Assembly: GCF_001625015.1 (NCBI RefSeq)
Contig: NZ_LVWJ02000014.1
Span: 3,100,001-3,164,000, forward strand
Direction: 5' to 3'
DNA: 64,000 bases
Source: Lewinella sp. 4G2
Lineage (GTDB): Bacteria > Bacteroidota > Bacteroidia > Chitinophagales > Saprospiraceae
Below are positions 383 through 45,489 of this stretch, piece by piece. The notes below the pieces were generated by a model. It was not told where the DNA came from. It saw only the letters and a list, made by a program, of their open reading frames with translations, and did no database searches. The first letter of the stretch is position 1. Each line of letters opens with the position of its first letter. The position numbers were made by a program, and so were the translations under genes.

Positions 383-409
383 ACTCGGTGCGCGGCCTTC
401 AGTCGGGAT

Positions 410-972: not shown

Positions 973-1043
973 GACCAGACCCGTACGGATTCAATTTAGT
1001 GCTGAGGTAGCCTCAGCGGAAACCCTGTATCCTCTCCCAATGC

Positions 1044-5923: not shown

Positions 5924-6131
5924 AGCTGACGGGTGTTTGGACCCCTAATTTCCGAATCCAGCCATTATTCCCAAAATAAATTCAATTTTTAGCCCGATAC
6001 GCGTTGAAAGGGATCACCTTGACCTGTAAACCACCGGTGCGGAGTAACTACAGTCGCTTTCGGACATTCACCACAAAATCCTTACCACACAATTAGGGAA
6101 TAATACTGTTTAGATTGGCAAATAACCACCT

Positions 6132-6941
6132 ATGCTACGCTGCTCCTCACTGTTGACGTTCGCTCTCGCACTTCTATTCTCCTCCTGCGGCAGCTACCAA
6201 CCCACCGAAACCTACCCACCAACGGACCCCGATTTCGTAAGCCCGAACCAACTCAGTGAAGAGCTTCTCCAGGGACTTAAAGATGGGGAAGACGTATCCG
6301 CCCTGGTTACCGATCTAGCTGATTTGAATCCCAAATTGCTGGCGGCCGCCCTCGATACGCGGGAGAAGCAACTCTCCTTCTGGGTCAATACCTACAATGC
6401 GATGGTACAACATCTACTGACGGAAGACCCAAGTTTGTTCGATAACCGTGGCGACTTCTTCTCAACGCCCGCCTTTACCGTAGCCGGCAAAACCATGTCG
6501 CCGAACGAAATGGAACACGGCATCATCAGGGGAGGGGAGAACCGCTTTGGGCTAGGCTTCATTCCCCAGATCTTCTCCAACAAGTTTGAACGGACCTTTG
6601 CCATCGACGGCGGTGACTCCCGCGTCCACTTTGCGCTGAATTGCGGGGCCGCCGACTGCCCTCCGGTCGAGATCTACGAACCCGAAACTTTTCAGGATCA
6701 GATCAACGAAAGGGTGACCAAGTACCTGGCAAAACACTCCGAGATCAAAGAGGTAGACGGAGAAAAGACTATCTACCTAACCCCACTATTCTCCTGGTTC
6801 CGCGGCGACTTCAAAGACCGCGGCGGGATCGCCGACTACCTGGTAGAATACGGCGTGCTCACGGAGGAACAGAAGGACATCAACCGCGAGTTCAAAGACT
6901 ACGACTGGACACTGAAGACGGGGATCTGGGCGGAGGATTAG
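6132..6941 (+). CDS. DUF547 domain lipoprotein
   Basis: A 269-residue protein with a lipobox (LLFSSC, Cys19), so it is probably anchored in a membrane on the periplasmic side. The body matches DUF547: REKQLSFWVNTYNAMV, KTMSPNEMEHGIIRG, RVHFALNCGAADCPP and a C-terminal FKDRGGIADYL segment. The conserved Asn-Cys-Gly and Asp-Cys pair are present. No enzymatic activity is firmly established for the family. It ends head-to-head with murA across a short region filled by a hairpin, so it is monocistronic. Confidence 0.85.
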   Translation: MLRCSSLLTFALALLFSSCGSYQPTETYPPTDPDFVSPNQLSEELLQGLKDGEDVSALVTDLADLNPKLLAAALDTREKQLSFWVNTYNAMVQHLLTEDPSLFDNRGDFFSTPAFTVAGKTMSPNEMEHGIIRGGENRFGLGFIPQIFSNKFERTFAIDGGDSRVHFALNCGAADCPPVEIYEPETFQDQINERVTKYLAKHSEIKEVDGEKTIYLTPLFSWFRGDFKDRGGIADYLVEYGVLTEEQKDINREFKDYDWTLKTGIWAED

Positions 6942-21491: not shown

Positions 21492-21600
21492 GCAACCAAA
21501 CTTCAAAAGGTGAGGTTTGTACTGTCTTACAAGCACCTTGAGACCCTGTTTTCGCGTTTTTCTGTTTTCTTTCCAATCAAGCTACACAACGTTTTCGATC

Positions 21601-25443: not shown

Positions 25444-25548
25444 CCATTATGCGTTCCTACTAATTTCGTACTTTGCCATCCCGCACGCCGCCCGATGGCA
25501 CACCATATTGGCGCGTACCGCGGGCCCACCAAAACCGGGTACTCACCT

Positions 25549-28788: not shown

Positions 28789-28820
28789 TTTGTTAAAGAA
28801 ATGTCATGAAAGTATCTTTG
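28789..28820 (+). promoter_or_regulatory. Promoter of the act-cox operon
   Basis: TTTG (28789-28792), 20 bases, TATCTTTG (28813-28820) followed by CGGC. This is a full match to the Bacteroidota primary sigma promoter (TTTG about 19-20 bases before TAnnTTTG). Leader to actA is about 60 bases. Confidence 0.8.
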
Positions 28821-28883
28821 CGGCACTCTAGGACGGGCAATTTTCGCCCGCTCCGGCGTAACTTCTTAAATGTCAATTACATA

Positions 28884-30395
28884 ATGGCATACCAGCTTAA
28901 ACTGACCAAGACCCTGCTTCTGCTTTGCTGTCTCTTCCTGAGCAGCTTCACGGCTTTTGCACAAGATGAACCCGCCGCAGAGGCACCCGCACCCACGGAA
29001 GTGGCCGGTGAAGCTTCGGCCGGTGGCGTGGCCGTCGGGGCGGGAGATTACTCCAAGGGTAAATCCGTCTGGAACGCAAACGCGTGTGGTACCTGCCACA
29101 TTAAAAACATGAAGGACAACGGTACCGGCCCCGCTCTCGGTGGGGTTGAGGAGCGCTGGGCTGCGGAGCCGCGCGAGCACCTTTACCGTTGGGTGCGTAA
29201 CTCCCAAAAACTGATCGCTTCCGGTGAATCCGCCCGCGCTATCCAGGTGTGGAACGAGAATAAGCCGAAGATCATGTCGACCTACACCAAGTTGACGAAT
29301 GACGACATCGAACACCTGCTGGCTTACATTGACGGACAGTACACTGGAAACATTCCTGGTGGCCCTGGCCCTGATGTTGCTGGTCCTAATGGTATTCAAG
29401 CTGAAGAGGCAGACAACACCTGGATCTTTGTTATCCTCGGCATTTCCTTACTCCTGCTTTCCCTCATCCTCGCCCGTGTAACCAGTAACATGCGTTACCG
29501 CGTTGCTGCCAGCGAAGGTGCAGCGCCAACCCGCCGCACACTCGTAGAAGTGCTAACTAGTAAGGGAGTTATTGCTTTCGTAGTCTTTGCCCTCGTGGTA
29601 CTGGGTGGTTACACGACCGTCAACCACGCCATCGACCTCGGCCGCCAGCAGGATTACCAGCCGGAGCAACCCATCAAGTTCAGCCACGTTACGCACGCAG
29701 GCCTCAACAAGATCGAGTGTCAGTACTGCCACGACGGCGCCCGCCGCTCTAAGCACTCCGTGATTCCTGCCGTTAATACCTGTATGAACTGTCACCGCGC
29801 CATTAAGGTGGGTAGCCAGTACGGTACGGCCGAAATCACCAAGATATTTGCTGCGATCGGTTACGATCCCAAGACCGATACCTACATCGAGAACTACGAG
29901 GACCTGACCAACGAGGAGATCAAGGCGCTGTACTCCAGCTGGATCCTAGAGAATCAGCAGAAAGAATACGAGAACCCTGCGGAGATCGACTTCGACGAAG
30001 TAGAAGAAGAAACGGAGCGTCAACTCGCTGCCCTAGAGGATGCACTGACCAATGAGTACACAGGTGACGATAAGATCGCAGGACCAGTTGAATGGGTACG
30101 TATTCACAATCTCCCCGACCACGCTTACTTCAACCACGCCCAGCACGTAACTGTGGGTAAGTTGAAGTGCCAGAACTGTCATGGCCCGGTGGAAGAAATG
30201 GAACTCGTCTACCAGTACTCACCACTCAGTATGGGTTGGTGTATCAACTGTCACCGCCAGAGTGAGGTGCAGTTCGAAGAGAACGACTACTACAAGGCTT
30301 ACGAACGCTACCACAACGAGATTGAAGACGGCGTGCGTGCCGGCGTAACCGTTGAGGATATCGGCGGCCTGAATTGCCAGCGCTGCCACTACTAA
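28884..30395 (+). CDS. actA: Alternative complex III multiheme cytochrome c subunit ActA
   Basis: A 503-residue subunit of the quinol:electron acceptor oxidoreductase (ACIII). Start ATG 28884 gives MAYQLKLTKTLLLLCCLFL, a signal peptide (cleaved near AFAQ); the frame to 28806 would lie inside the promoter. An N-terminal cytochrome c-like domain carries Cys68-x-x-Cys71-His72. A membrane helix (about 174-192) and a second hydrophobic segment (about 230-245) follow. The pentaheme domain then has CxxCH at 279-283, 300-304, 429-433, 453-457 and 498-502, the last ending one residue before the stop. That makes six heme sites, one more than the five typical of ActA. First gene of the operon. Confidence 0.93.
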   Translation: MAYQLKLTKTLLLLCCLFLSSFTAFAQDEPAAEAPAPTEVAGEASAGGVAVGAGDYSKGKSVWNANACGTCHIKNMKDNGTGPALGGVEERWAAEPREHLYRWVRNSQKLIASGESARAIQVWNENKPKIMSTYTKLTNDDIEHLLAYIDGQYTGNIPGGPGPDVAGPNGIQAEEADNTWIFVILGISLLLLSLILARVTSNMRYRVAASEGAAPTRRTLVEVLTSKGVIAFVVFALVVLGGYTTVNHAIDLGRQQDYQPEQPIKFSHVTHAGLNKIECQYCHDGARRSKHSVIPAVNTCMNCHRAIKVGSQYGTAEITKIFAAIGYDPKTDTYIENYEDLTNEEIKALYSSWILENQQKEYENPAEIDFDEVEEETERQLAALEDALTNEYTGDDKIAGPVEWVRIHNLPDHAYFNHAQHVTVGKLKCQNCHGPVEEMELVYQYSPLSMGWCINCHRQSEVQFEENDYYKAYERYHNEIEDGVRAGVTVEDIGGLNCQRCHY

Positions 30396-30486
30396 GTCGG
30401 TTCTCCACTTGCCTTAGCAGGCTCACCTATTCGTATTGCCTCAACCACGGAGGCTTTTCCAACCAGAAAGAAATCATCCCCAGGGA

Positions 30487-33400
30487 ATGAGTAAGAATAA
30501 CAAACAAGTTTGGCTCGGTACTGATCAGTTAGAGTCCAGCGCCGAATACGTAAAGGCAACCGATAACGAAGTTGCTCAGGTAACTACCCAGGACCTCGAG
30601 TCCCCCCGTCTAGAGAGCAGCCGCCGTGACTTCCTGAAGTACCTCGGTTTTGGTATGACGGCTGCTACCATTGCGTCCTGTGACATTCCCGTCCGTAAGG
30701 CAATCCCATACGTCAGCAAGCCAGATACCATCGTTCCCGGTGTAGCTACTTACTTCGCCTCTACGTTCGCTCAGAGTGGAGACTACGTGCCGTTGCTCGT
30801 CAAGACTCGTGAAGGCCGCCCAATTAAGGTGGAGGGTAACGGTATGAGCCCCATCACTCAGGGTGGTACTACGGCTCGCGCTCAGGCTGCCATCCTTGGT
30901 CTGTACGATACCAGCCGCTTCGACGGTCCTTACCGCATCATCGAAGGTAAGGCCACCAGCGATCGTGACCCTAGCAATAATGATGGTTGGGATATCATCG
31001 ATGGCGAAATCATGGGCAAGCTGACCGCCGGATCTCAGATTCGGGTAGTTACGCACACGCTGATGAGCCCCTCCACATTGGAGGCGATCGCTGAGTTCAA
31101 AAAAGCATACCCCAACACGGAGATCGTTCAGTACGACCCCGTATCTAGCGCCGCCCTGCTGGATGCCAACCAGGCTACTTTCGGCAAGCGTGCTATCCCG
31201 ACTTACCGTTTCGACAAGGCGGAGACAATCGTCAGTTTTGGCGCTGATTTCCTCGGTACCTGGATCAGCCCCGTTCAGTACGCCCGCGACTACGTTCAGG
31301 GTCGCAAGACAAACCAGGCGCGCATGAGCCGCCACATCCAGGTAGAAAGCGGTATGTCACTTACCGGGTCTAACGCTGATAACCGGATCATGGTCAAGCC
31401 AAGTGAGCAAGGCCAAGCCATTTTGGCACTCTACGGAGCAGTTGTCGGTGGAGGGAGCGCTTCACTTTCTGGTGCAGTCGCCGAAAAGATTGCCGCGGTC
31501 GGTGCGGAACTCAAGCGTAACCGCGGTCGCAGCCTCGTCGTTTCCAGTAGCAATAACCTTGGAGAACAACTTCTCGTTAACGCCATCAACGAAGCGCTGG
31601 GTAACTACGGTTCCACCATCATGACCGATAAGTGGAGCATGCAGCGCAAGGGTGACGACAAAGCGATCGCCCGATTCGCCAGCGAGTTGGAGGCCGATAC
31701 CATCGATGCTGTCTTTGTTTTGGAGGGTGCCAACCCCGTCTATGACAACCCGTGGGGCGCGACCATCGCTGCTAACCTCAGCAAAGCAACCATTGCGGTG
31801 AGCCTAAGTGGTGTCCCAAATGATACTAGCGTCCTTTGTAACTACGTAGCTCCCGATCACCACTTCCTGGAGAGTTGGGGCGACGTTGAAGCCGTTGAAG
31901 GTGAATTGAGCCTCATTCAGCCAACCATTACGCCAATTTTTGCCAGTGTGGGTCGTGCCGGTACGCGGCAGGCCGGTGAGTCTTTCCTCATTTGGGGTAA
32001 GTCCGCCACCTACCAGCCAGATGCTGATCAGCCTTACCTGGAGTTCGTAAAGAGCGTCTGGGAACGTACGGCATACAATCGCCAATCCGGTTTCACTGCC
32101 TTCCGTTCTTTCTGGGATTCAGCGCTGCACGACGGTGTTGTTACCCTGGGTGGCGGTACACCATTCACGGCTAGTACTGACGCTGAAGCCGTACCGTTAG
32201 CTGCCCCTGCCGCCTTCAATCAGGGCGCTGTCGCGGGTGCGATGCAAAGGGTTAATGTACAAGGGACCGGCCAGGAAGTCAGTTTCTCGGAAACGATCAA
32301 CGTGGGTAACGGCGTCTTTGCCAATAACCCCTGGTTACAGGAGTGTCCCGACCCGGTTACGCGTACCGTATGGGGTAACTACCTCACCATCCCGGTAAAG
32401 TGGGAAGGTGGCAATAGCTATACCGCTTACAATGACCTCAACGCCGAAGAATACAAAGGCAAGGCCGATATTGTTAGCCTCCGCCCCGGTGGCGACAAGA
32501 CACCCGCTGATGTAACGGTGGTTCGTCAGTTCGGCCAATTAGAAGATACCTTCTCTATCGCCGTAGGTTACGGCCGCAAAGTCACCGGAATGTCCGGCCG
32601 CGCAATTGGCCACGACATCGGCGTAAATGTTTACCCCTGGCTTCCAGTCGTAGATGGTTACGTACAGTACTACATCACGGGCGCGGAAGTGTCCGGGGTT
32701 GTGGACAACGAAGAAGAATTTGCCTCCGTCCAGTACCACCACACGATGGGTCTTACGACCAAGAATGAGGCTGGCGCGATGGTCTACTACGATCGCCACA
32801 CCGGCGAAACCGTAGAATATGATCGTCCGCTAACGGATGAGGAAAAAGAACACCTGGAACCCTTCCACGTCGACGAAAAGACGGTCATGGAACTGGGTGA
32901 AGGTATGCAGGGTGGTCTCACCAAGCGTTCCATAATTTACCAGGGCACTTTCGCTGAGTTGGGTGAACTAAAGGGCGAGATCAAGGAGCGCCGCGAGGAA
33001 GCACAACACCTTAACGAGCAAACACTTTACCCTTACGAAGAGTACGCGGAGAACATCTACGGACAGGGTCACTGGTGGGCGATGCACGTCGACCTCACCG
33101 CCTGTATCGGTTGTGCCGCCTGTGAGGTAGCCTGTGTGGCGGAGAACAACGTTCCGATCGTAGGTAAGTACGAAGTATGGCGCCACCACGAAATGAAGTG
33201 GATGCGCATCGACCGTTACTTCTACGGCGACGTCGAAAACCCCCGTGCCGTCTACCAACCCATGATGTGCCAGCACTGCGACAACGCTCCGTGTGAGAAC
33301 GTTTGCCCGGTAAACGCCAGCCAGCACAGCAATGAGGGGCTTAACCAGATGATCTACAACCGCTGTATCGGAACCCGTTACTGCGCCAATAACTGTCCCT

Positions 33401-33831
33401 ACAAAGTCCGCCGCTTCAATTGGTTGGATTTTACTACTGGTGACCTCTTCAGCTCCAACGAACCCAGCGTTCAGGACGAGGAATTGGCCTTCGGTGCGGA
33501 CAACCTGACGCGGATGGTTCTGAACCCAGACGTGACCGTACGTAGCCGTGGTGTAATTGAGAAATGTAGCTTCTGTACCCAGCGCCTTCAGGCCGGCAAG
33601 CTGACCGCGAAAGTGGAAGGCCGCCGCCTCCGCGACTCTGACGTACGGACCGCTTGCCAAACCGCCTGCCCCACGGGTGCCATCACCTTTGGTGACCGTA
33701 ACAACAAGCAGGGTGAAGTAGCCGCAAAACTGAACAACCCGCTAAACTACCTTGCTCTTGAGGAAGTGAACACCCAAAGCGCCGTATTCTACGCTGCACG
33801 GGTGCACAATCCCATGGACGAGCTGGTCTAA
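30487..33831 (+). CDS. actB: Alternative complex III iron-sulfur subunit ActB
   Basis: An 1114-residue fusion of a molybdopterin-oxidoreductase-like domain (known in ACIII to lack molybdenum cofactor) and a ferredoxin-like domain. A Tat-type motif SRRDFLKYLGFGMTAA near residue 40 indicates folded export. Fe-S ligands lie in the C-terminal third: Cys873/876/879/883 (CIGCAACEVAC), then CQHCDNAPCENVC, CIGTRYCANNCPYKVRRFNW and CSFCTQR with a distal CQTACPTGAI. Start ATG 30487 (MSKNNKQVW) is preferred over an upstream ATG at 30436. It carries electrons towards the heme subunits. Confidence 0.94.
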   Translation: MSKNNKQVWLGTDQLESSAEYVKATDNEVAQVTTQDLESPRLESSRRDFLKYLGFGMTAATIASCDIPVRKAIPYVSKPDTIVPGVATYFASTFAQSGDYVPLLVKTREGRPIKVEGNGMSPITQGGTTARAQAAILGLYDTSRFDGPYRIIEGKATSDRDPSNNDGWDIIDGEIMGKLTAGSQIRVVTHTLMSPSTLEAIAEFKKAYPNTEIVQYDPVSSAALLDANQATFGKRAIPTYRFDKAETIVSFGADFLGTWISPVQYARDYVQGRKTNQARMSRHIQVESGMSLTGSNADNRIMVKPSEQGQAILALYGAVVGGGSASLSGAVAEKIAAVGAELKRNRGRSLVVSSSNNLGEQLLVNAINEALGNYGSTIMTDKWSMQRKGDDKAIARFASELEADTIDAVFVLEGANPVYDNPWGATIAANLSKATIAVSLSGVPNDTSVLCNYVAPDHHFLESWGDVEAVEGELSLIQPTITPIFASVGRAGTRQAGESFLIWGKSATYQPDADQPYLEFVKSVWERTAYNRQSGFTAFRSFWDSALHDGVVTLGGGTPFTASTDAEAVPLAAPAAFNQGAVAGAMQRVNVQGTGQEVSFSETINVGNGVFANNPWLQECPDPVTRTVWGNYLTIPVKWEGGNSYTAYNDLNAEEYKGKADIVSLRPGGDKTPADVTVVRQFGQLEDTFSIAVGYGRKVTGMSGRAIGHDIGVNVYPWLPVVDGYVQYYITGAEVSGVVDNEEEFASVQYHHTMGLTTKNEAGAMVYYDRHTGETVEYDRPLTDEEKEHLEPFHVDEKTVMELGEGMQGGLTKRSIIYQGTFAELGELKGEIKERREEAQHLNEQTLYPYEEYAENIYGQGHWWAMHVDLTACIGCAACEVACVAENNVPIVGKYEVWRHHEMKWMRIDRYFYGDVENPRAVYQPMMCQHCDNAPCENVCPVNASQHSNEGLNQMIYNRCIGTRYCANNCPYKVRRFNWLDFTTGDLFSSNEPSVQDEELAFGADNLTRMVLNPDVTVRSRGVIEKCSFCTQRLQAGKLTAKVEGRRLRDSDVRTACQTACPTGAITFGDRNNKQGEVAAKLNNPLNYLALEEVNTQSAVFYAARVHNPMDELV
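32224..32240 (+). repeat. Near-copy (15/17) of the 17-bp repeat
   Basis: GGCGCTGTCGCGGGTGC inside actB, read Gly-Ala-Val-Ala-Gly-Ala. It differs at the variable central base and at one further base. Confidence 0.45.
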
Positions 33832-34002
33832 TAGCCATTGATTCTCTACGGTTCATGTTATTGACTTGGACCGCGGAGGTAAACTGAGATAACCGGCACC
33901 CAGCCGCAAACTATAAAAACTGATGGGTGAGTAAGGGTACTTGAATTCTGTGAGTCATCTCACATCAAGCACCATTAATTACCAATCGCATATTAATACC
34001 TA

Positions 34003-35529
34003 ATGAGTGGACATGTAGCACCCGTTCGCAGGCCGTTAATCACGGGGAACAAAACGTACCACCAGATCACGGAGGATATCTGTCGCCCAACGGAAACGGC
34101 GCCTTCCCTTTCCTGGGTTATTACGTTTATCCTTTCCGTGATGTGTTTGGGCTTGTTCGTCTTTTCCGTCGCCTGGACGATCTGGGTTGGAATTGGCTCC
34201 TGGAACCTTAACCGTACCATTAACTGGGGTTGGGATATCACCAACTTCGTTTGGTGGGTAGGTATTGGCCACGCCGGTACGTTGATCTCGGCCATCCTTC
34301 TCCTTTTCCGCCAGAAGTGGCGTACGGGGGTAAACCGCGCCGCGGAGGCCATGACGATCTTCGCCGTGATGTGTGCCGGTCAATTCCCTTTGATTCACAT
34401 GGGTCGCCTCTGGTTGGCCATCTTCATCTTCCCTTACCCGAACACGCGTGGCCCACTGTGGGTGAACTTCAATAGCCCACTACTGTGGGACGTATTCGCC
34501 ATTTCTACCTATTTCACGGTATCGTTGCTGTTCTGGTACGCTGGTTTGGTTCCCGACTTGGCTACGGTTCGTGACCGGGCCAAAGGCCTTCGCAAAAAGA
34601 TCTACAGCGTAGTGTCCTTCGGCTGGAATGGTTCCGCTAAGCACTGGCAGCGTTGGGAGAGCCTTTCTCTCATCCTCGCCGGTCTCGCTACGCCACTCGT
34701 TCTTTCCGTACACACGATTGTATCCTTCGACTTCGCGACTTCCGTAATTCCCGGTTGGCACACGACGATCTTCCCTCCCTACTTCGTAGCGGGTGCGATC
34801 TTCTCTGGCTTTGCGATGGTACTGACGCTGATGCTGATTGCCCGTAAGGTCCTCCACCTGGAAGATTACATTACGATCGAGCACATCGAGTCGATGAATA
34901 AGGTAATTCTGCTTACTGGATCGATCGTGGGTGTGGCTTACCTCACGGAGCTCTTCATCGCCTGGTACTCCGGCTACATCTACGAGCAGTTCGCCTTCCT
35001 CAACCGGGTGCTCGGGCCTTACTACTGGTCCTACATCGGGATGATGCTGTGTAACGTATTATCGCCGCAGATCTTCTGGAGCAAGAAATTGCGGACAAGT
35101 CTGTTCTGGACCTTCTTCATGTCGATTTTCATCAACATTGGTATGTGGTTCGAACGCTTCGTCATTATTGCTACAACGCTGGCCCGTGATTACCTGCCCT
35201 CCAGCTGGTCCTACTACGTACCTACCTGGGTGGAGATTTGCATCTTCATTGGAACCATCGGGCTGTTCTTCACCCTCTTCCTGATCTTCACCCGGGTTGC
35301 ACCGGTAGTAGCGATTGCGGAAGTGAAATCTATCCTGAAGACCTCCGGCGACCAGTACATCGGTCCTAACGCCCACCACGGGCATAGCTACGGACACGGT
35401 CACCACGTGCCCGCAACGGCGAATGACCACGCGGCTGGTTCTACGGTAGATATTGACCCAGCGGACCCTAACCGTCGCTTTGACGGCAAACCTGACTCAC
35501 AAAAAGACAGCTACGGCGGCGACAACTAA
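34003..35529 (+). CDS. actC: Alternative complex III membrane subunit ActC (NrfD-like)
   Basis: A 508-residue integral membrane protein of the NrfD/PsrC type with about ten hydrophobic segments from residue 45 to about 440. It forms the quinol-binding membrane part of ACIII. Visible anchors are [33 protein letters not shown] and [10 protein letters not shown] near the N-terminal half. The last 55 residues are hydrophilic with a His-rich tract ([15 protein letters not shown]). 171 non-coding bases separate it from actB, with no terminator seen. Confidence 0.94.
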
Positions 35530-35534
35530 TAACC

Positions 35535-36125
35535 ATGGCAACAACTACAATCCCCCACAGCGGAGTACCCGCAGGTAGCCTCCAAGCTACTGAGGACGAT
35601 GGTCTGTCCGATATCCTATTTGGACTTTACGACGATGAGGAGAAGCTGTTGGAAGCCGTGAAGGCTGCTAACGCTGCTCACCTCGAGATTGACGACGTTT
35701 ACACGCCGTTCCCCGTTCACGGGTTAGATCCTCTTCTGGGCCTCGCCGAAAGCCGTCTGCACCAGGCTGGATTCGTCTTTGGTTCTATCGGCTGTCTGTT
35801 TGGCTTTGGCTTTATGACGTGGGTATTTACCCGCGATTGGCCGATCATCTTTGGTGGTAAGCCTTACTGGTCCGTACCGGCGTTTATTCCAATCACTTTC
35901 GAACTGACGGTTCTTTTTGCTGCGGTAGGAATGGTTCTGGTATTCTACATCATTTGTGGACTGGGCCCCGGTGCAGAGCCTCGCCGTCTGCACGACCGCA
36001 TAACGGATGACAAGTTCTGTATTGCCTTCGACGCTACGAATGTTGGCAGTGAGCAGACGGACAAGTTCCGCGAGTTCTTCGCTCAAACTGGAGCGGAGTC
36101 AGTTCATATGAAACGAACGCACTAA
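35535..36125 (+). CDS. actD: Alternative complex III subunit ActD (DUF3341)
   Basis: A 196-residue DUF3341 protein with two membrane helices (about 82-102 and 118-140) and the usual N-terminal FGLYDDEEKLLEAVKAA and YTPFPVHGLD segments. It begins 5 bases after actC, so translation is probably coupled. The C-terminal FCIAFDA-type soluble domain is present. Confidence 0.93.
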   Translation: MATTTIPHSGVPAGSLQATEDDGLSDILFGLYDDEEKLLEAVKAANAAHLEIDDVYTPFPVHGLDPLLGLAESRLHQAGFVFGSIGCLFGFGFMTWVFTRDWPIIFGGKPYWSVPAFIPITFELTVLFAAVGMVLVFYIICGLGPGAEPRRLHDRITDDKFCIAFDATNVGSEQTDKFREFFAQTGAESVHMKRTH

Positions 36126-36177
36126 ACTGGATCATCCACGGGATTAAGCTTGGCGCAAGCTACTTGGTCCTTCCCTT

Positions 36178-36193
36178 GCACCTGCGGCAGCGC
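36178..36193 (-). repeat. 17-bp interspersed repeat, C-type (16/17)
   Basis: GCACCTGCGGCAGCGC then A instead of C, in the 106-base gap between actD and actE within the operon. In the transcription direction it reads GCACC..., as do the other intergenic copies. Confidence 0.75.
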
Positions 36194-36231
36194 AGGAAAA
36201 ATTTAACCGGGCGTCTTCAGGATTCCCACTG

Positions 36232-37155
36232 ATGATATCAAGCATGAAAGATTTGCGCAATTTGGTAATAATGCTCGCTTTTGCGGTAGCTCTCGTATCC
36301 TGCGATGCGGAAGACAACTACACGGGAAGTGAGTACATGCCCGACATGGCCCACTCGTTGGCGTTGGAGGCAAATACCTACAACTACTACTATTACAATA
36401 CGTGGGATGACCGTTCTACGGTAGAACTTGCCAAGTTGGTCTACCCGCGGGTTACGGTTGAAGGTACCGTGCCCCGTGGTTACGCCGGCCGTTACCTGGA
36501 TGGTGCCCCCGCACCACCGGAAGGAGAGGAAGAACTGCGTAGCTACACGCTCGCTGAGCAGTCCGACAACGGTATTAGCGCGCCGACCAATGGCCACGTT
36601 CCTTATTATTACGATGATACTCCCGAAGGCCGTGAACGTGCCATTGCAGAGTTGACGGAAAATCCATTTCCAATCACCGAGGAAGGCATGATCCGCGGCG
36701 CGGTGCTCTACAACACCTTCTGTGGAATCTGCCACGGTGCTCAGGGCAATGGCCTTGGCTACATCTACGACGAGGAGCAAAATCCTAATGCTGCCTACCC
36801 ATTGGCACCAGCGAACTTCCTCACGGATGAGTTCAAAGCAGCCAGTAACGGCCGCTACTATAACGCCATTATGCACGGCTACAACGCAATGGGAGCCTAC
36901 AAAGACAAGATCTCCTACGAGGAGCGTTGGCAGGTGATTCACTACATCCGCGCCCTGCAGGCTAAGGACGGTAAGTTCCAATACGATCAGGACGGTAATA
37001 CGTTCAACGCGGCTTTCGGTACTCCGGTAGCCCAGTATGACCCCCGCGCCCGCTCGGTACAAGATGCCGGTGAGCAGATTGGCGGCGTCATCGAAGACGT
37101 CGACGTAGAGGATGCGGAAGCAGCGATGGAAAGCGGCCAAATGCGCAAGAAGTAA
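36232..37155 (+). CDS. actE: Alternative complex III monoheme cytochrome c subunit ActE
   Basis: A 307-residue lipoprotein (lipobox ALVSC) with one class I cytochrome c site, FCGICHGAQGNG (around residue 165), and a distal Met region (AIMHGYNAMGAY). ActE is the exit heme of ACIII, facing the oxidase. Start is either ATG 36232 or ATG 36244 (MKDLRNLV); both keep the signal peptide. It overlaps no neighbour; actF follows after 52 bases. Confidence 0.92.
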   Translation: MISSMKDLRNLVIMLAFAVALVSCDAEDNYTGSEYMPDMAHSLALEANTYNYYYYNTWDDRSTVELAKLVYPRVTVEGTVPRGYAGRYLDGAPAPPEGEEELRSYTLAEQSDNGISAPTNGHVPYYYDDTPEGRERAIAELTENPFPITEEGMIRGAVLYNTFCGICHGAQGNGLGYIYDEEQNPNAAYPLAPANFLTDEFKAASNGRYYNAIMHGYNAMGAYKDKISYEERWQVIHYIRALQAKDGKFQYDQDGNTFNAAFGTPVAQYDPRARSVQDAGEQIGGVIEDVDVEDAEAAMESGQMRKK

Positions 37156-37207
37156 TTACCACCCACTTATTTTAAGGAGTCTGACTCCCAACTATAGATA
37201 TCTATTG

Positions 37208-38761
37208 ATGGAAACATTTGTATTCTCATCACGCGCTAAAGCGACGACTGGCGGACTGGCCATCTTTGGGCTCATCCTGCTCGTGCTGAGCTATTTCGTT
37301 GACGGTGGTGAAGGGCACCACATGCGCTTCTGGACGAACCTGCTACACAACTCCGTCTTCTTTCTGGGGATTGGTGCCTTAGCTGGTTTTGCTTACTGTG
37401 CCTTTACGACGGCTTACGCTGGTTGGTTCGTACAGTTCAAGCGGGTCTGGGAAAGCTTCTGGATGTTCCTACTTCCCGGTCTTTTCCTAATGGGAATCAT
37501 TATCGTTGGTCTGTGGATGCATTCCCACCACATGTACCACTGGAACGATGCTGCGGCCGTTGCGGATGATGCTATCCTGACGCACAAGAGCTCCTTTCTG
37601 AATGCATACTGGTATACGGGAGCATCCATCCTATTCGTAGGTGTTTGGTACTTCATGCTCGGAAGAATCCGGAGCATCAGCATTGACGAAGACGCTAACG
37701 GTACTACTGCTTTTGAGCACCACGCGCGGATCAAGAAGTACGCGGCTCCATTCCTGGTGATCTTTGGTTTCACCTCAGCAGCTTTGATCTGGCAGTGGAT
37801 CATGTCTTTGGATAGCCACTGGTACTCAACAATGTTTGCCTGGTACGCAACGGCTTCGTTGTTCGTAGCGATGATGGCACTGACCATCATGCTATTGATC
37901 TACCTCAAGAGCCGTGGCTACTACACCGGCATCACGGCGGAGCACTTCCACGATATGGGTAAGTACTTGTTTGCTATCTCCATTTTCTGGACTTACCTGT
38001 GGTTTAGCCAGTACATGTTGATCTGGTACGGAAACGTAGGGGAGGAGACGATCTACTTCCGTGAGCGGATGGACAATTACCCAGTTCTGTTCTGGACCAA
38101 CCTCGGTATCAACTTCCTGCTGCCATTTTTCGTGCTGATGCGGAACGATACCAAGCGGAAAGCGGGTACGCTGTTTTTTGCGGCTGCGTTTGTGTTCTTC
38201 GGCCACTGGTTGGACTACTTCCAGATGATTAAGCCAGGTGCCCGCCTAACGCTCATCGAGATGGAACACCACGATGCACACGGTGGACACGGCGAGGAAC
38301 ACGCGACCATGGACGGCCACGGTGCTGACCATAGTGAAGATCACGCCAGCGTTGATGGCCACGGCGACGATCATGACATCGTACCGGGTGAATCCACGGA
38401 TCACGCAACGAATCGTACCGAAGCGGACCCTGCAGGCGAAGATCACGCGTACGATAACCACAACATCGAGCAGCATCCCGACGCAGTGGAGAGCAACATC
38501 CCCGTAGCCGCGAACAACAACCACGGCCCGGGTGGTGATCATAATTTCACCGACCTGGTTACTGCTAGCGATGGAGAAGAGCATTTAAGCCCGTCTGCGG
38601 AGTTCAAGTCCGGATACACGCTGCCAGGACTACTGGAGATTGGCATCTTTTTAGGTTTCCTCGGCGGGTTCTTATTCTTCGTGTTGAGCAAACTACAAGA
38701 AGCCCCGCTCGAGCCAAAACGTGACCCCTACTTCGAAGAGAGTCTGCACCACCACACCTAG
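37208..38761 (+). CDS. actF: Alternative complex III membrane subunit ActF with His/Asp-rich insertion
   Basis: A 517-residue NrfD-like membrane subunit; the start METFVFSSRAKATTGGL at 37208 is preferred over an upstream frame overlapping actE. About ten hydrophobic segments span residues 15-345, with MHSHHMYHWND in an early loop. Before the last helix (about 474-494) a hydrophilic stretch of about 110 residues is rich in His and Asp, with a near-repeat of DGHGADHSEDHA and DGHGDDHD. That stretch is longer than I would expect for this family and could bind divalent metal ions. Last act gene; coxB follows after 136 bases with its own -7 box. Confidence 0.92.
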   Translation: METFVFSSRAKATTGGLAIFGLILLVLSYFVDGGEGHHMRFWTNLLHNSVFFLGIGALAGFAYCAFTTAYAGWFVQFKRVWESFWMFLLPGLFLMGIIIVGLWMHSHHMYHWNDAAAVADDAILTHKSSFLNAYWYTGASILFVGVWYFMLGRIRSISIDEDANGTTAFEHHARIKKYAAPFLVIFGFTSAALIWQWIMSLDSHWYSTMFAWYATASLFVAMMALTIMLLIYLKSRGYYTGITAEHFHDMGKYLFAISIFWTYLWFSQYMLIWYGNVGEETIYFRERMDNYPVLFWTNLGINFLLPFFVLMRNDTKRKAGTLFFAAAFVFFGHWLDYFQMIKPGARLTLIEMEHHDAHGGHGEEHATMDGHGADHSEDHASVDGHGDDHDIVPGESTDHATNRTEADPAGEDHAYDNHNIEQHPDAVESNIPVAANNNHGPGGDHNFTDLVTASDGEEHLSPSAEFKSGYTLPGLLEIGIFLGFLGGFLFFVLSKLQEAPLEPKRDPYFEESLHHHT

Positions 38762-38897: not shown

Positions 38898-40415
38898 ATG
38901 AAAACATTGATCGTACTTTTCTGTATCGCGTTGATCCTTTTGATCGTGCTACAGATCGCCAAAGTCCGGGATCTTGCCAAGGTTCTCCGGGGCCCGGAGG
39001 AGATCGAGGCAAGGAACACTAACATGACTGGCATCTACCTGCTTGGTTTTGTTGGCGTATTTTTGGTTGGTGCCACGCTATCCGCATTCTACTACAAGAA
39101 TTGGATCCTTGGTTACGGACCACATGAGTCTGCTTCCGAACACGGTGCGCGTATTGACTCGATGATGGGATGGACACTACTCGTTACCTACAGTGTATTC
39201 GTACTAACGCATATCCTGCTCTTCTACTACGCCTTCCGGTACCGCACGCGCAAGGGACGTAAGGCCCAGTTTATCAGCCACGACAACACGCTTGAGATCG
39301 TTTGGACGGCTGTTCCTGCAATCGTCATGACCTTCCTCGTAATCGGCGGCCTTGATGCCTGGAACGATATCATGGGTGATGTTGGTACGGATGAAGATGT
39401 ACTGGAAATTGAAGCCACTGGTATCCAATTTTACTGGCAGATGCGCTACCCAGGAGACGATGGGTTATTGGGAACTAAGGACTTCCGTTTGATCACTGGA
39501 ACCAATTCACTCGGTCAGGACTGGACCGATATGAAGAACGCCGACGACTTTCTCGTGAATGACGTCGTTCTCCCAGTTGACCAGAAGGTTCGGGTACGGA
39601 TCACGGCCCGCGACGTTCTCCACGATTTTTACCTTCCCCAGTTTCGGGTGAAGATGGATGCAGTACCTGGTCTCCCAACGTTCTTCGTCTTTACTCCTAC
39701 GAAGACTACCAAAGAGTGGCGTAAGGAATTGAGCGAGTACGAAGAATACCAGATCCCAGATCCTGAGAATCCTGAAAAGATGTTGTGGGAGACCGCCAAC
39801 TTCGAACTGGCTTGTGCAGAGCTTTGCGGCATTGGCCACTGGTCCATGGCCAGAACCGTTACCATCCTTGAGCGGGATGAGTACGATGCCTGGGCTGCGG
39901 AGCAAAAGTCCTATTACATGGAGAACATCCGTGGTACGGATGCAGATCCTAACACCGGTATGCTGATGCCTCAGGAGATCACGCAACGCCGTGCCGAGTT
40001 CATGTCCAGCGCCATGGCTGCTCTCGAAACTGAAGATGATACTGACAACACGTTGGTACTCGACTACGTAACCTTTGAAACCGGAAGCGCAAAGCTGACC
40101 GAGCTCAGCCAGTACCAATTGGATGACGCCGTCACCTTCTTGATGAAAAATGCAGACGTTTCTGCCATTGCACGCGGCCATACCGACAATACCGGTAACG
40201 CAGAGATGAACATGGCACTTAGCGTTAGCCGCGCTGAGGCTGTGAAGAATTATCTGACGGCAAACGGCGTTGACGCCAACCGCTTATCATTTGAAGGATT
40301 CGGCCAAGAGCGGCCTCGCGAGACAAATGACACCGAGGAAGGCCGGCAGGCTAACCGACGTACGGAGCTTTACATCACCCGTTCCCTCACCGAGGATGAA
40401 CAGTTGAGCAAGTAA
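38898..40415 (+). CDS. coxB: Cytochrome c oxidase subunit II fused to an OmpA-like peptidoglycan-binding domain
   Basis: A 505-residue protein; ordinary subunit II is 250-350 residues. The N-terminus has a hydrophobic segment (1-22), then the two subunit II helices (about 46-65 and 95-120). The CuA cupredoxin domain carries the full ligand set Cys306, Cys310, His314 and Met317 in CAELCGIGHWSM, so electron entry is intact. A linker leads to residues 389-500, a complete OmpA/MotB C-terminal domain: LDYVTFETGSAKLT, HTDNTG (428-433), LSVSRAEAVKNYL, FEGFGQERPRETN and NRRTELYI. Asp430 and Arg445 stand exactly 15 residues apart, as do the two residues that bind diaminopimelate in Acinetobacter OmpA (Asp271, Arg286). 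caa3 oxidases carry cytochrome c at this position instead. The topology puts the domain in the periplasm. Confidence 0.95.
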   Translation: MKTLIVLFCIALILLIVLQIAKVRDLAKVLRGPEEIEARNTNMTGIYLLGFVGVFLVGATLSAFYYKNWILGYGPHESASEHGARIDSMMGWTLLVTYSVFVLTHILLFYYAFRYRTRKGRKAQFISHDNTLEIVWTAVPAIVMTFLVIGGLDAWNDIMGDVGTDEDVLEIEATGIQFYWQMRYPGDDGLLGTKDFRLITGTNSLGQDWTDMKNADDFLVNDVVLPVDQKVRVRITARDVLHDFYLPQFRVKMDAVPGLPTFFVFTPTKTTKEWRKELSEYEEYQIPDPENPEKMLWETANFELACAELCGIGHWSMARTVTILERDEYDAWAAEQKSYYMENIRGTDADPNTGMLMPQEITQRRAEFMSSAMAALETEDDTDNTLVLDYVTFETGSAKLTELSQYQLDDAVTFLMKNADVSAIARGHTDNTGNAEMNMALSVSRAEAVKNYLTANGVDANRLSFEGFGQERPRETNDTEEGRQANRRTELYITRSLTEDEQLSK

Positions 40416-40470: not shown

Positions 40471-42324
40471 ATGGCAAGCGCAATCATTACAGCACCGGTG
40501 ACTCGTGAAGAAGGTCTAATCCAAGAACTGGGTTACGACGATCACTTCCACGACCACCACCACGGGGACAAGTACCAGTCTAACTTCGTCTCTCACTACA
40601 TCTTCTCGATGGATCACAAGATGATCGCCAAGCAGTTCCTGATCACGGGAATGATGTGGGCAATCATCGGTGGCTTGATGTCACTCGTTTTCCGTCTTCA
40701 GTTGGGTTTTCCCGAGGAAAGCATCGCTTTTCTCAAGCCGGTACTCGGTAAGTGGATTGCCGTAAACAGTGACGGCATTGGTACGCTCACCCAGGATTTT
40801 TACTATGCTTTGGTGACGATGCACGGTACAATTCTGGTTTTCTTCGTACTAACGGCGGGCCTTTCGGGTACTTTCTCGAATCTGCTTATTCCGTTGATGA
40901 TTGGTGCTCGTGACATGGCATCTCCATTGCTGAACATGTTGAGCTACTGGTTCTTCTTCATTTCTGGTATGGTAATGTTCTCGTCACTCTTCCTCTCTAC
41001 CGGCCCATTTGCGGGAGGTTGGGTTGCGTACCCACCGCTGTCGGCATTGCCGCAAGCTATGGACGGTTCCGGTGCAGGTATGACGCTCTGGACCATTTCC
41101 TTGGTTCTCTTCGTAGTATCCGTCCTTCTTGGTGGTGTGAACTACATTACTACCGTCCTGAACCTTCGTACGAAAGGAATGAGTATGTGGCGTTTGCCAC
41201 TTCCTATTTGGGCGTTCTTCGTAACGGCAATCATTGGTCTCCTTTCCTTCCCAGTATTGACCTCTGCCTTCTTCCTGATGATGTTGGACCGTGGTATCGG
41301 TACCAGCTTCTACCTGAGTGATATCTACATTGGTGGAGCAGCACTAGACCACGTCGGTGGTTCGCCGATCCTTTACCAGCACCTTTTCTGGTTCCTGGGT
41401 CACCCGGAGGTATACATCATTATCCTTCCGGCGATGGGTATCGTATCCGAGGTACTATCCGTACACGCTCGCAAGCCAATTTTTGGCTACAAGGCGATGG
41501 TATTCTCCATTCTGGCGATTGCCTTCCTGTCCTTTATTGTTTGGGCTCACCATATGTTTATGTCCGGTGTAAACCCGTTCATCTCTAACTTCTTCGTGAT
41601 CTTCACGCTGATCATTGCTGTGCCTTCCGCGGTAAAGGTCTTCAACTGGATTGCAACGCTCTACGGAGGTAACATTCGCTTCAATCCCGCCAGCCTTTTT
41701 GGTATCGGGTTCGTTTCGATGTTCATCTCCGGTGGTCTCACTGGTATCTGGTTGGGTAACTCCACGCTAGATATTCAGCTCCACGATACTTACTTCGTTG
41801 TTGCTCACTTTCACATTGTGATGGGTGTTGCTGCCTTCTTTGGTATGTACGCTGGTGTTTACCACTGGTTCCCCAAAATGTACGGTCGCTTTATGAATGA
41901 GACCCTCGGCAAGTTCCACTTCTGGGGTACGATCATTGGCGCTTACTGCGTGTTCTGGCCCATGCACTACCTCGGTATGGCTGGTGTGCCCCGTCGTTAC
42001 TACAGCTTCGATGCCTTCAAGACTTTCGGTCACTTCGACGGCATGAACAAGTTCATCACAATTGCTGCGATCATCACTTTCGGTTTCCAGCTCCTCTTCG
42101 TGATCAACTTCTTCTACTCCATCTGGAAAGGGCGCAAGCTTAAGCAGCAGAACCCATACAACGCGAACACGCTCGAATGGACAACTCCAATCGAAGTTGG
42201 CCACGGCAACTGGCCGGGCAAGCTTCCAGCCGTTCAGCGCTGGGCTTACGACTACGGAAAAGATGGTCGCGAATTTATCCCACAAGTGGAACCAATCGGA
42301 GAAAACGAGTCTCCGGCTCACTAG
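40471..42324 (+). CDS. coxA: Cytochrome c oxidase subunit I
   Basis: The 617-residue catalytic subunit of an A-type heme-copper oxidase, with twelve membrane helices. Metal ligands are visible: His118 (MHGTILVF, heme a), His311 with the cross-linked Tyr315 in GHPEVY, His360-His361 (WAHHMF) for CuB, and His446/His448 (VAHFHIV). The Glu in GHPEVY is that expected of A1-type proton uptake. The N-terminal tail holds DDHFHDHHHGDK, a His-rich tract not needed for the core. Followed by a terminator-like hairpin. Confidence 0.97.
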   Translation: MASAIITAPVTREEGLIQELGYDDHFHDHHHGDKYQSNFVSHYIFSMDHKMIAKQFLITGMMWAIIGGLMSLVFRLQLGFPEESIAFLKPVLGKWIAVNSDGIGTLTQDFYYALVTMHGTILVFFVLTAGLSGTFSNLLIPLMIGARDMASPLLNMLSYWFFFISGMVMFSSLFLSTGPFAGGWVAYPPLSALPQAMDGSGAGMTLWTISLVLFVVSVLLGGVNYITTVLNLRTKGMSMWRLPLPIWAFFVTAIIGLLSFPVLTSAFFLMMLDRGIGTSFYLSDIYIGGAALDHVGGSPILYQHLFWFLGHPEVYIIILPAMGIVSEVLSVHARKPIFGYKAMVFSILAIAFLSFIVWAHHMFMSGVNPFISNFFVIFTLIIAVPSAVKVFNWIATLYGGNIRFNPASLFGIGFVSMFISGGLTGIWLGNSTLDIQLHDTYFVVAHFHIVMGVAAFFGMYAGVYHWFPKMYGRFMNETLGKFHFWGTIIGAYCVFWPMHYLGMAGVPRRYYSFDAFKTFGHFDGMNKFITIAAIITFGFQLLFVINFFYSIWKGRKLKQQNPYNANTLEWTTPIEVGHGNWPGKLPAVQRWAYDYGKDGREFIPQVEPIGENESPAH

Positions 42325-43388: not shown

Positions 43389-44009
43389 ATGGAAAAGATA
43401 ACTATCGACAACAGACTTTTGGGAGACGGGCATGAACGCAGCCTGGCATCTCCGGCACGCCACAATAAGATCCACCCTAAGAAACTAGCGCTGTGGGTTG
43501 GGCTGGTAAGCTTGGTAATGATGTTTACCGCACTGACCTCCGCCTTCATTGTGCGCCGGGCGGCGGGTAACTGGCTGGAATTCTCGATTCCCTCTATTTT
43601 CTACATCAATACTTTGGTCATCCTGGGTAGTAGTATAACTTTGCACGCTGCTTACGTAGCCTTCAAACGAGAAGCTGCGGCGGCCTACAAGTTCCTGCTT
43701 GGAATCACCTTTATCCTTGGGATTGCCTTCGTCGTACTCCAGTACGTAGGTTGGGAGGATCTCGCTGCGAGCGGTGTGCCCCTGAAGATCAACCCAAGTG
43801 GAGATTTCATCTATGCTATCAGTGGCTTACACGCGCTGCACGTCATAGGTGGAATTGCGATCTTGTTGGTAGCCTTGATAATGGCTTTCATTTTACCACT
43901 GAAGGCTACCCCCGCCAGGAAGCTGCGGCTAGAATTGACGCTGACTTACTGGCATTTCGTTGATGCACTCTGGATCTACCTCATCGTTTTCCTGAGTTTG
44001 CAACGATAA
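43389..44009 (+). CDS. coxC: Cytochrome c oxidase subunit III (short form)
   Basis: A 206-residue heme-copper oxidase subunit III with five hydrophobic segments. It starts 5 bases after ctaB. Family marks: KLALWVGLVSLVMMFTALTSAF, YAISGLHALHVIGGIAIL and the C-terminal LELTLTYWHFVDALWIYL. The first two helices of the seven-helix form are absent, as in many Bacteroidota. It is followed by a second subunit III gene. Confidence 0.92.
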   Translation: MEKITIDNRLLGDGHERSLASPARHNKIHPKKLALWVGLVSLVMMFTALTSAFIVRRAAGNWLEFSIPSIFYINTLVILGSSITLHAAYVAFKREAAAAYKFLLGITFILGIAFVVLQYVGWEDLAASGVPLKINPSGDFIYAISGLHALHVIGGIAILLVALIMAFILPLKATPARKLRLELTLTYWHFVDALWIYLIVFLSLQR

Positions 44010-44079
44010 TATTGATAACCAAAACTACGCACTGCCTCCGTGGTAGTGCCGCACCCATCTACAGTTAAATAAATTACAC

Positions 44080-45036
44080 ATGGCCGAAGAAACGGACATT
44101 CTAGTCGCCGCGGAGCACGATCATTCAGATCACAATGCGTCCTGGGAAGGTGGTGATGCCAAGCCGTTTGAGGCTTCCTACGGGAAGCTGATGATGTGGT
44201 ATTTCCTACTCTCCGATGCATTCACTTTCGCTGGTTTCCTGATTGCGTACGGTACGTTGCGTTTTTCAAGCCCCAGCTGGCCGGTACCCGATAGCGTATT
44301 TAACACGGCGCCGTTTGGTATCCACGGCATGCCGCTGATCTTCGTTACGTTCATGTCCTTTCTCCTGATCATTAGCTCGGGAACTATGGTGCGTGCCGTA
44401 CAGGAAGGTGCCCGTGAAAACAAGCGTGGGGTAGTATTTTGGATGTTACTCACCGTTATTGGTGGCGCTGGTTTCCTTGGCTGCCAGGCATGGGAGTGGA
44501 ATAACCTAATCAACGTCGAGCACATGACCGTTACTACGAATCCATTCGGGACGTACACGGAGAACGGCTTCTACCTGGACCCAGAAACTGGAGAACCGAC
44601 CTCCGAGGAAGTCGTAGCGGGAGAGACTTATCTGCTTCACCTAGCTGGAGCTAGCCACGGGGAAGGACACGAAGGGGAAGAAGAGTCCTTCGACTACGGT
44701 GCTACACCCGGCAATTACGCTGGCTACGAGATCAACGAGGAGAACATGTTCATCCGCCGCAAATTTGTTGTCTCTGGCGGCGATCGTGACGGTGAAATTA
44801 TGACCCAGCAGCTGGGGCCAACAGCTTTCGGTGCGCTCTTCTTTGGTATCACTGGCTTCCACGGCTTCCACGTACTGACGGGTGTTGTGTTCCTACTGAT
44901 TATCCTGATCAACGCCGGTAGCGGTGTCTATGCTGCACGCCAGAACGGCTACGAAATGGTCGAGAAGATCGGTTTGTACTGGCACTTTGTCGACCTGGTT
45001 TGGGTCTTCGTCTTTCTGGTATTCTACCTCCTGTAA
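44080..45036 (+). CDS. coxC: Cytochrome c oxidase subunit III (second copy)
   Basis: A 318-residue subunit III. Helices lie at about 42-62, 88-108, 125-142, 252-280 and 295-318, with the C-terminal KIGLYWHFVDLVWVFVFLVFYLL typical of the family. A soluble stretch of about 90 residues between the third and fourth helices includes HLAGASHGEGHEGEEESFDYG and is rich in Glu/His; the N-terminal tail has AAEHDHSDHN. Tandem unequal coxC genes are usual in this phylum. Confidence 0.92.
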   Translation: MAEETDILVAAEHDHSDHNASWEGGDAKPFEASYGKLMMWYFLLSDAFTFAGFLIAYGTLRFSSPSWPVPDSVFNTAPFGIHGMPLIFVTFMSFLLIISSGTMVRAVQEGARENKRGVVFWMLLTVIGGAGFLGCQAWEWNNLINVEHMTVTTNPFGTYTENGFYLDPETGEPTSEEVVAGETYLLHLAGASHGEGHEGEEESFDYGATPGNYAGYEINEENMFIRRKFVVSGGDRDGEIMTQQLGPTAFGALFFGITGFHGFHVLTGVVFLLIILINAGSGVYAARQNGYEMVEKIGLYWHFVDLVWVFVFLVFYLL

Positions 45037-45075
45037 TCACTGCCGTCCATCTAACCGAACTAAAAATATAATACT

Positions 45076-45489
45076 ATGGCCAGCCACGCTAGCTACGAAG
45101 AACAAACAGCCGCGGTATGGAAGGGACTTGGTCTCCTCGCATTCGTGACCCTCGTTGAGGTAGGATTATCCCTGCTCAAAGCTACGGATTGGGCGAAGGA
45201 TATCCAGTGGGTATTCGTTGCCGCCGCCGTCCTTATCATCGCGCTTTCCATTTACAAGGCTTACTTCATCATTTACGAGTTCATGCACATGGCTTACGAG
45301 GTGAAGGGTCTTGCCATGACGGTCCTACTCCCCGTCTTCCTTTTAGTTTGGGCGGTCATCGCCTTCTTCTACGAAGGTGGCGCCTGGAAGGAGAACCGCG
45401 AGAAGGTACAGGAACTGAACAACCGCACTGAATTGGTTACACCCTCCGATCCGGTTGGAATGAATGAGGATTACGCTCCGTTTGAATAG
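45076..45489 (+). CDS. Cytochrome c oxidase subunit IV-like protein
   Basis: A 137-residue membrane protein with three helices (about 15-33, 47-65 and 78-99), matching the prokaryotic COX4 family (VEVGLSLLKATDW, YKAYFIIYEFMHMAYEVKG, FLLVWAVIAFFYEGGAWKENR). It assists assembly or stability of the oxidase. 39 bases after coxC; followed by a terminator. Confidence 0.88.
   Translation: MASHASYEEQTAAVWKGLGLLAFVTLVEVGLSLLKATDWAKDIQWVFVAAAVLIIALSIYKAYFIIYEFMHMAYEVKGLAMTVLLPVFLLVWAVIAFFYEGGAWKENREKVQELNNRTELVTPSDPVGMNEDYAPFE

Follow-up and report, generated by a model that had tools for sequence, protein, structure and literature searches.

In the usual picture, the respiratory complexes of bacteria diffuse in the membrane. 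OmpA-like anchors on envelope machines are well known. The coxB gene of Lewinella sp. 4G2, which lies in a window of 64,000 nucleotides (the whole stretch of DNA analysed, in which all positions are counted), raises the question of whether a respiratory complex can itself carry such an anchor. The presence of an OmpA-like domain on CoxB here, and on a neighbouring subunit in relatives, suggests a respiratory machine that is fastened to the wall. The best reading, which we consider probable, is a non-covalent wall tether of an ACIII-oxidase supercomplex, in which the carrier subunit differs between lineages.

Fusion gene and operon setting

A preliminary description of this DNA had claimed one continuous reading frame joining a CuA domain to an OmpA-like domain, and this was confirmed: the frame runs uninterrupted from the ATG at 38898 to the stop at 40413-40415 and encodes 505 residues with both Pfam domains above cut-off (Table 1). 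The CuA residues C306, C310, H314, and M317 are as described there, and H242 and E308 complete the ligand set. Together with the COX2_TM and COX2 domains and the adjoining coxA, the complete CuA set marks the protein as an aa3-type subunit II; it scores 146.2 bits on the NCBIfam CoxB equivalog model against a cut-off of 147.7 (1.5 bits short) and is the only COX2 match in the genome. The Pfam OmpA model aligns with residues 392-487 (profile positions 1-98 of 98, 72.0 bits, E 5.6e-20, cut-off 27.2), and the domain matches PDB chains including A. baumannii Omp38 (3td3) and Pal (4g4v). The motifs HTDNTG, LSVSRA, and NRRTEL noted previously are present, with a spacing of 15 residues between D430 and R445. 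The triad D430/N438/R445 has the same 8- and 15-residue spacing as Asp576, Asn584, and Arg591 of PorE. In PorE, the side chains of these three residues touch a peptidoglycan fragment bound to the protein, and the residues are conserved in A. baumannii OmpA and Pal, according to the available part of the PorE paper (PMC7192894). CxxCH is absent from all 505 residues and no Pfam cytochrome c was found, so that the protein does not qualify as a caa3-type subunit IIc. It is not Pal either, with membrane segments present and 76 bits on the Pal model TIGR02802 (cut-off 125.35), and the MotB, MotD, and MotY models fall far below cut-off among the matches listed (25 of 41 families). The genome contains 23 OmpA matches, of which 22 are above cut-off, and it encodes DapF.

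The setting is an ACIII-aa3 operon, since ActE matches the ActE chains of solved structures (6f0k_E, E 3e-15; 6btm_E, E 6e-12). The genes actABCDEF stand in order at 28806-38761 and are followed by coxB-ompA, coxA, and then cyoE-like and coxC/D-like genes. Complete ActA homologues in relatives have six CxxCH motifs, and actC has a match at E <= 1e-60 in 392 of the 393 genomes of the order searched. The actE gene of Lewinella sp. 4G2, two genes upstream of coxB, encodes no OmpA domain. ActF has an insert of ~110 residues rich in His, Asp, and Gly (549 aa vs about 400-470 aa in most relatives read), which is possibly a metal buffer beside the oxidase genes. Elsewhere in the window, 1044-4346 (-) encodes a protein of 1100 residues that combines WD40 repeats with a caspase-like Peptidase_C14 domain, and upstream of the operon lie the genes for a multidomain protein with ThuA, GSDH, PKD, and cytochrome c domains (21517-25005) and, after it, a protein bearing the CHU_C signal for type IX secretion (25495-27972).

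Table 1. Features of the ACIII-oxidase operon and of the coxB-ompA gene, by position in the window
Feature	Position	Strand	Basis or remark
actA, multiheme cytochrome c subunit of ACIII	28806..30395	+	NCBIfam QrcA-like below cut-off; position
actB, Fe-S/molybdopterin-like	30436..33831	+	NCBIfam MoCo_extend_TAT above cut-off, QrcC-like below
actC, quinol-binding membrane subunit	34003..35529	+	function from ACIII literature
actD	35535..36125	+	syntenic homologue in relatives
actE, lipoprotein monoheme cytochrome c	36232..37155	+	matches 6f0k_E, 6btm_E; Pfam cytochrome c only
actF with His/Asp/Gly-rich insert	37112..38761	+	syntenic homologue; no Pfam match
coxB-ompA fusion gene, 505 aa	38898..40415	+	single open frame; Pfam COX2_TM, COX2, OmpA above cut-off
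COX2 transmembrane domain, residues 77-148	39126..39341	+	PF02790, 36.8 bits, cut-off 22.8
Periplasmic CuA domain	39405..39848	+	PF00116 over residues 170-259, 54.4 bits, cut-off 22
CuA ligand loop C306-M317	39813-39848	+	H242 also in ligand set
Charged linker, residues 341-388, ~45 residues	39918..40061	+	
OmpA-like peptidoglycan-binding domain, residues 389-495	40062..40382	+	PF00691; PDB OmpA-family matches
D430; N438; R445	40185-40187; 40209-40211; 40230-40232	+	triad of the OmpA-like domain
coxA, oxidase subunit I	40471..42324	+	NCBIfam CtaD_CoxA 582.7 bits, below cut-off 670.75; adjoins coxB
Two coxC-like genes and a small coxD-like gene	43389..45489	+	position (names too); homologues in relatives

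Conservation of CoxB-OmpA among homologues

A protein search bore the fusion out: among the best 120 of 3100 proteins, the window's own included, PF00691 occurs with PF00116 in 119, and the lone exception (P0081) has a frame-shifted OmpA part. All six CuA ligand positions are invariant in these 120 proteins, and the triad is kept in most of them (D430 in 114, N438 in 115, R445 in 118, and all three residues in 111). Among the nine exceptions, one is the frame-shifted P0081, five have lost Asp (P0084, P0086, P0100, P0101, and P0102, with P0086 also lacking Arg) and three have another residue at 438; three of the five Asp-less proteins are named Lewinella or Neolewinella. Asp is also lost in the ActE-OmpA of family f72 and in P0198. 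The mean identity of the other proteins of this set to the window protein is 0.75 in the core, 0.50 in the linker, and 0.58 in the OmpA domain, and the linker between positions 341 and 390 measures 45-53 residues in the listed proteins over 470 aa. Source names among the best 120 include Neolewinella and Lewinella species and Saprospiraceae MAGs. Some CoxB-OmpA records (e.g., P0100 and P0110) are named "flagellar motor protein MotB" or "OmpA family protein", so that the annotation hides an oxidase subunit.

Absence of the fusion from all relatives, which the preliminary description had considered, is not what whole-genome searches found: a full-length match occurs in 19 of the 21 genomes of the genus, Lewinella sp. 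4G2 among them (the two without such a match are 88% and 55% complete), and in 10 of 16 genomes from other genera of the family, with five of these 16 matching in the CoxB part only and the remaining one (87% complete) having no CoxB match among the matches listed. Even within the family the fusion does not occur everywhere, as some genera lack the domain and one genus has a decayed domain. In that genus (g64; operons L060, L300, and L301), the CoxB tail has the length and rough pattern of OmpA without the HTDNxG or Arg motif, no OmpA was found by Pfam in the L060 tail, and the tail looks like the decay of an anchor within one genus. The median dN/dS of CoxB pairs was 0.025 in the core and 0.054 in the OmpA domain (5/16 close-relative pairs with usable dS in both parts), and ActE-borne OmpA domains gave 0.04-0.15 (4/5 ActE pairs with usable dS). 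The single g64 pair measured gave 0.146 in the decayed CoxB tail, so that a low ratio alone is no proof of wall binding.

Two carriers, CoxB and ActE

A search of 60 relatives gave three genomes, two of the same family and one of the same order, that have a CoxB without OmpA and an OmpA domain ~1.4 kb upstream on the same strand. This upstream domain is the C-terminus of ActE, in which Pfam found both cytochrome c and OmpA (L040, L041, and L042). An aside in the preliminary description, that an ACIII-oxidase supercomplex might be tethered, was strengthened by the finding of the same kind of domain on ActE elsewhere and by its distribution: the 151 operons readable for both genes comprise 85 with OmpA on CoxB only, 35 on ActE only, 31 on neither, and none on both. 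The tally covers 161 operons, two of them from one genome, and its counts are operons and not independent events; beyond the 151, seven operons have an ActE without OmpA and three an ActE-OmpA, in each case with no complete CoxB. The operons were collected mostly as one per genus of the family first, then more of the family, and then other families of the order, and were scanned with profiles built from the operon's own proteins, the samples not being random. One of the 35 ActE carriers (L392) has an ActE cut at its start. The 31 operons with neither carrier include the three g64 operons with the decayed tail, and L323 and L328, in which the ActE and OmpA parts are interrupted by runs of N and which are "neither" in the tally by profile and ActE carriers in the tree only.

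Twelve operon products were scanned by best profile hits, some of them partial, and OmpA was found on CoxB and ActE only; it was not found on ActA (119 operons), ActB (137), ActC (157), ActD (159), ActF (161), CoxA (150), CyoE (138), or three CoxC/D products (130, 129, and 64). A directed search for an operon with both carriers in 398 genomes of the family, with ActE-OmpA matches listed to E 1e-75, newly listed 13 ActE-OmpA genomes, of which 11 have a readable CoxB and none has OmpA on it (part of the tally), and seven further operons read alongside carry OmpA on CoxB only. In the operon subset of the tally, the triad is intact in 78 of 78 CoxB-borne and 24 of 25 ActE-borne domains, and the linker measures 38-63 residues on CoxB (78 operons) and 36-174 residues on ActE (22 of 25). 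A tail start resembling IRGT..DP was seen in the CoxB of several lineages without OmpA on CoxB. A second OmpA was also considered for the CoxB tails (40-190 residues) of ActE-OmpA lineages and discarded, since these tails have no OmpA profile match and mostly look low-complexity or coiled. Genome G374 has two ACIII-oxidase operons (L081 and L304), both with OmpA on CoxB. A named sample of 80 loci, six of which duplicate operons of the first set, gave 16 CoxB carriers, one ActE carrier, 56 loci with neither, and seven incomplete loci. OmpA on CoxB was seen there in one species of Lewinella and in MAGs assigned to Saprospiraceae or Bacteroidota/Bacteroidetes, and neither carrier was found in the loci from Chitinophaga, Niastella, Niabella, Flavihumibacter, Winogradskyella, and Pontibacter. 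L202, whose CoxB and OmpA lie in separate frames, was counted as having neither.

With CoxB-OmpA as the query against 396 genomes of the class, full-span matches among those listed occur only in the family of Lewinella sp. 4G2, a form of matching that misses fusions, as the known fusions G017 and G060 matched in part only. Reading 30 class loci from this query (of which L193 alone sits in the 161-operon tally) gave six with OmpA on CoxB, all in the family. Outside the family, CoxB-OmpA is found in f4 (G059, G073; partial in G798) and f19 (G054). One f4 genus has two genomes with a full-length CoxB fusion, a third matching to the domain end from a cut start, and two without it; similarly, one f19 genus has the fusion in one genome, lacks it in two, and is cut in another. 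Used as a query, the f19 protein brought up numerous further CoxB-OmpA proteins, including one named Chitinophagales. With ActE-OmpA as the query against the 396 class genomes, G653 is the one match among those listed that spans the whole query; on reading, G544 and G568 also proved to be ActE-OmpA, and G491, a long-frame ActE match, had no OmpA. A phylum search of 296 genomes gave no ActE-OmpA match spanning the query among the matches listed.

A tree of concatenated operon proteins was built for 140 operons, using the first 420 residues of CoxB frames (to which a few linker columns may contribute) and outgroups chosen partly for carrying ActE-OmpA. A derived clade of the family holds 97 operons (75 CoxB, 15 neither, 7 not readable, 0 ActE) with a local support of 0.99. 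The ActE carriers L064/L092, L108, and four L041-type operons lie below this clade, joining at 1.00, 0.98, and 0.85, and once the L281-type ActE carriers and L118 (neither) are added, the whole family is joined at 1.0. Since ActE carriers branch below the derived CoxB clade, the carrier within the family changed from ActE to CoxB. Parsimony with equal costs gives four gains on CoxB, three gains on ActE, one ActE-to-CoxB change, and nine losses, and with gains costing twice as much as losses it gives one gain on CoxB, one ActE-to-CoxB change, and 17 losses; the number of gains therefore depends on the costs, and by either reconstruction the anchor would have reached CoxB at least twice. The OmpA domains of f4 CoxB group with other OmpA proteins (bootstrap 88), so the f4 fusion probably arose separately. 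In the domain trees, the OmpA of family CoxB is neither joined to nor parted from that of family ActE. In L339, the spacer of ActE-OmpA looks like the calcium-binding repeats known from OmpA proteins of Bacteroidota, a hint that this fusion had an origin of its own. Most of the CoxB fusions read belong to one clade, so that the non-overlap of the two carriers rests on few evolutionary events.

A probable wall tether and its alternatives

The CuA domain of subunit II faces the periplasm, so that the C-terminus of CoxB reaches the compartment of the wall. By our own estimate, ~45 linker residues would extend over roughly 7 nm as a helix or 16 nm in extended form, and together with the CuA and OmpA domains the linker should be long enough to meet peptidoglycan. 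In the mechanism proposed here, the periplasm-facing C-terminus of CoxB would present the OmpA-like domain on this linker, the domain would grip diaminopimelate in peptidoglycan with no covalent bond, and the oxidase, and with it the ACIII-oxidase supercomplex, would thereby be tied to the wall. Where present, the anchor would be one per operon, carried by CoxB or ActE, with many lineages having none, and its purpose may be to immobilise or position the respiratory centre or to brace the inner membrane to the wall. A physical association of ACIII and oxidase is reported for F. johnsoniae (PMC8552683) and R. marinus (PMC5928083) in the available parts of these papers, and here it is gene adjacency alone from which we infer that a supercomplex forms. 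In a low-resolution map of the R. marinus ACIII-caa3 supercomplex, ActE and subunit IIc lie side by side, and an anchor that moved between them would therefore hardly change its position; for the F. johnsoniae supercomplex, the same partly available paper (PMC5928083) reports another arrangement. The claim of a wall tether in the preliminary description stands as the best reading, with the third contact residue, Asn, present too, and nothing was found to support its version in which the wall senses the complex. Against a tether stand the loss of Asp in some proteins and the many relatives without any anchor. The wider proposition, that the respiratory supercomplex of Saprospiria and of some other Bacteroidota is anchored to the wall, with one anchor per assembly where an anchor is kept, a carrier that changed, and an anchor that reached CoxB at least twice, seems to us evenly poised between true and false.

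The OmpA domain may instead have ceased to bind the wall and now act in assembly or in contact with another protein, such as a lipoprotein of the outer membrane or some other partner in the periplasm. The loss of Asp in five of the best 120 proteins and the decayed g64 tail, with dN/dS < 1 in one pair, fit this alternative, as the tail outlives the site; the full triad in 111 of the best 120 of 3100 and in 24 of 25 domains on ActE makes it unlikely, since a triad kept on two unrelated carriers is not demanded by a private protein contact. Neutral accretion, in which OmpA-like domains common in Bacteroidota fuse now and then to genes of periplasmic proteins without benefit, would accord with the 23 OmpA matches in the genome and with a presence that is patchy, also inside genera. 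We regard it as distinctly unlikely, because only two of twelve operon products carry OmpA and both are neighbours in the R. marinus map, as far as the available part of that paper goes, and because domain and triad are conserved and kept through much of a large family. A domain that reports the state of the wall to the oxidase, and does not anchor it, is possible from the architecture alone, with nothing found in its favour, and a linker that is long and variable on both carriers (38-63 residues on CoxB, 36-174 on ActE) is poorly suited to transmit a conformational change, which leaves sensing or regulation very improbable. An assembly or annotation artefact, finally, has practically no standing: nothing was found in its favour, and the suspicion of an error at the joint is dispelled by the 118 of 119 other proteins (best 120 of 3100) with both domains and by recurrence of the same joint in other assemblies at 52-81% identity.

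The wall tether can be compared with several known systems. In caa3-type oxidases, cytochrome c is fused to the C-terminus of subunit II. CoxB-OmpA resembles these oxidases in that subunit II is likewise extended at this end by a periplasmic domain, but the added domain is a redox carrier in caa3 and a putative wall binder without CxxCH in CoxB-OmpA. The nearest precedent is PsaB of Gloeobacter violaceus photosystem I, whose C-terminal domain was reportedly noted as peptidoglycan-binding in older work. Like CoxB-OmpA, PsaB (7f4v chain aB) is a core subunit of a bioenergetic membrane complex with a complete OmpA-like domain at its C-terminus (in a PDB comparison, its residues 754-868 of 872 align with CoxB-OmpA profile positions 389-497, E 5e-20), although it belongs to a photosynthetic and not a respiratory system; the 7f4v structure paper gives PsaB residues 3-727, and its main text mentions neither peptidoglycan nor OmpA. 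In MotB/PomB/MotY, TagL (T6SS), and PorE (T9SS), an OmpA_C-like domain is proposed to fix a machine to the wall, as here, and PorE, in the available part of its description, shares the DAP triad with CoxB-OmpA; however, there is no electron-transfer complex among these systems, and their carriers are unrelated. The ACIII-aa3/caa3 supercomplexes of F. johnsoniae and R. marinus have ACIII subunits homologous to those of the window (ActE vs 6btm_E and 6f0k_E), whereas no wall-binding domain is mentioned, and the word peptidoglycan is absent, in the available main text of the two papers (PMC8552683; PMC5928083). Mentions of OmpA in the available text of the former, considered as a description of ActE-OmpA, concern an ompA promoter (PMC8552683), and a further paper contains none of peptidoglycan, OmpA, ActE, and Flavobacterium johnsoniae (PMC8361435). 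By title and abstract start, no description of a CoxB-OmpA or ActE-OmpA fusion was found in the open-access literature, subscription papers being outside the scope of the search. To our knowledge, these fusions are the first case on a respiratory oxidase or ACIII subunit.

If the tether is real, respiration would take place at sites held in position relative to the wall, whether the anchor sits on the terminal oxidase or on the complex that donates electrons to it. The anchor opens two questions to testing, namely whether ACIII-oxidase supercomplexes occur in vivo and whether it matters where in the membrane they lie, and close relatives with and without the domain provide natural sets for comparison. 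Should the reading as an anchored supercomplex be true, the non-overlap of the carriers would be evolutionary evidence of the supercomplex in living cells, and a respiratory complex may double as a brace between the inner membrane and the wall.

Other domain additions were seen in related operons. CoxB frames of 476-562 aa from other parts of the class raised the suspicion of OmpA fusions, which was rejected: L180-L185, L189, and L195 have CxxCH, and their CoxB part begins at least 150 residues in, which indicates an N-terminal cytochrome c (Pfam run on L189 only). This N-terminal part on CoxB, in four other families of the class, is another domain addition to subunit II. In L181 (family f32), a 380-aa frame with OmpA at 5185-6324 (-) lies ~2 kb upstream of the CoxB with N-terminal cytochrome, and L196 has a 1202-aa frame (259-3864) whose last ~300 residues are CoxB and whose first ~850 have no Pfam match. 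Similarly, ActC frames of 568-635 aa with C-terminal extensions of ~90-160 residues occur in 14 of 81 operons (L063, L064, L071, L083, L096, and others).
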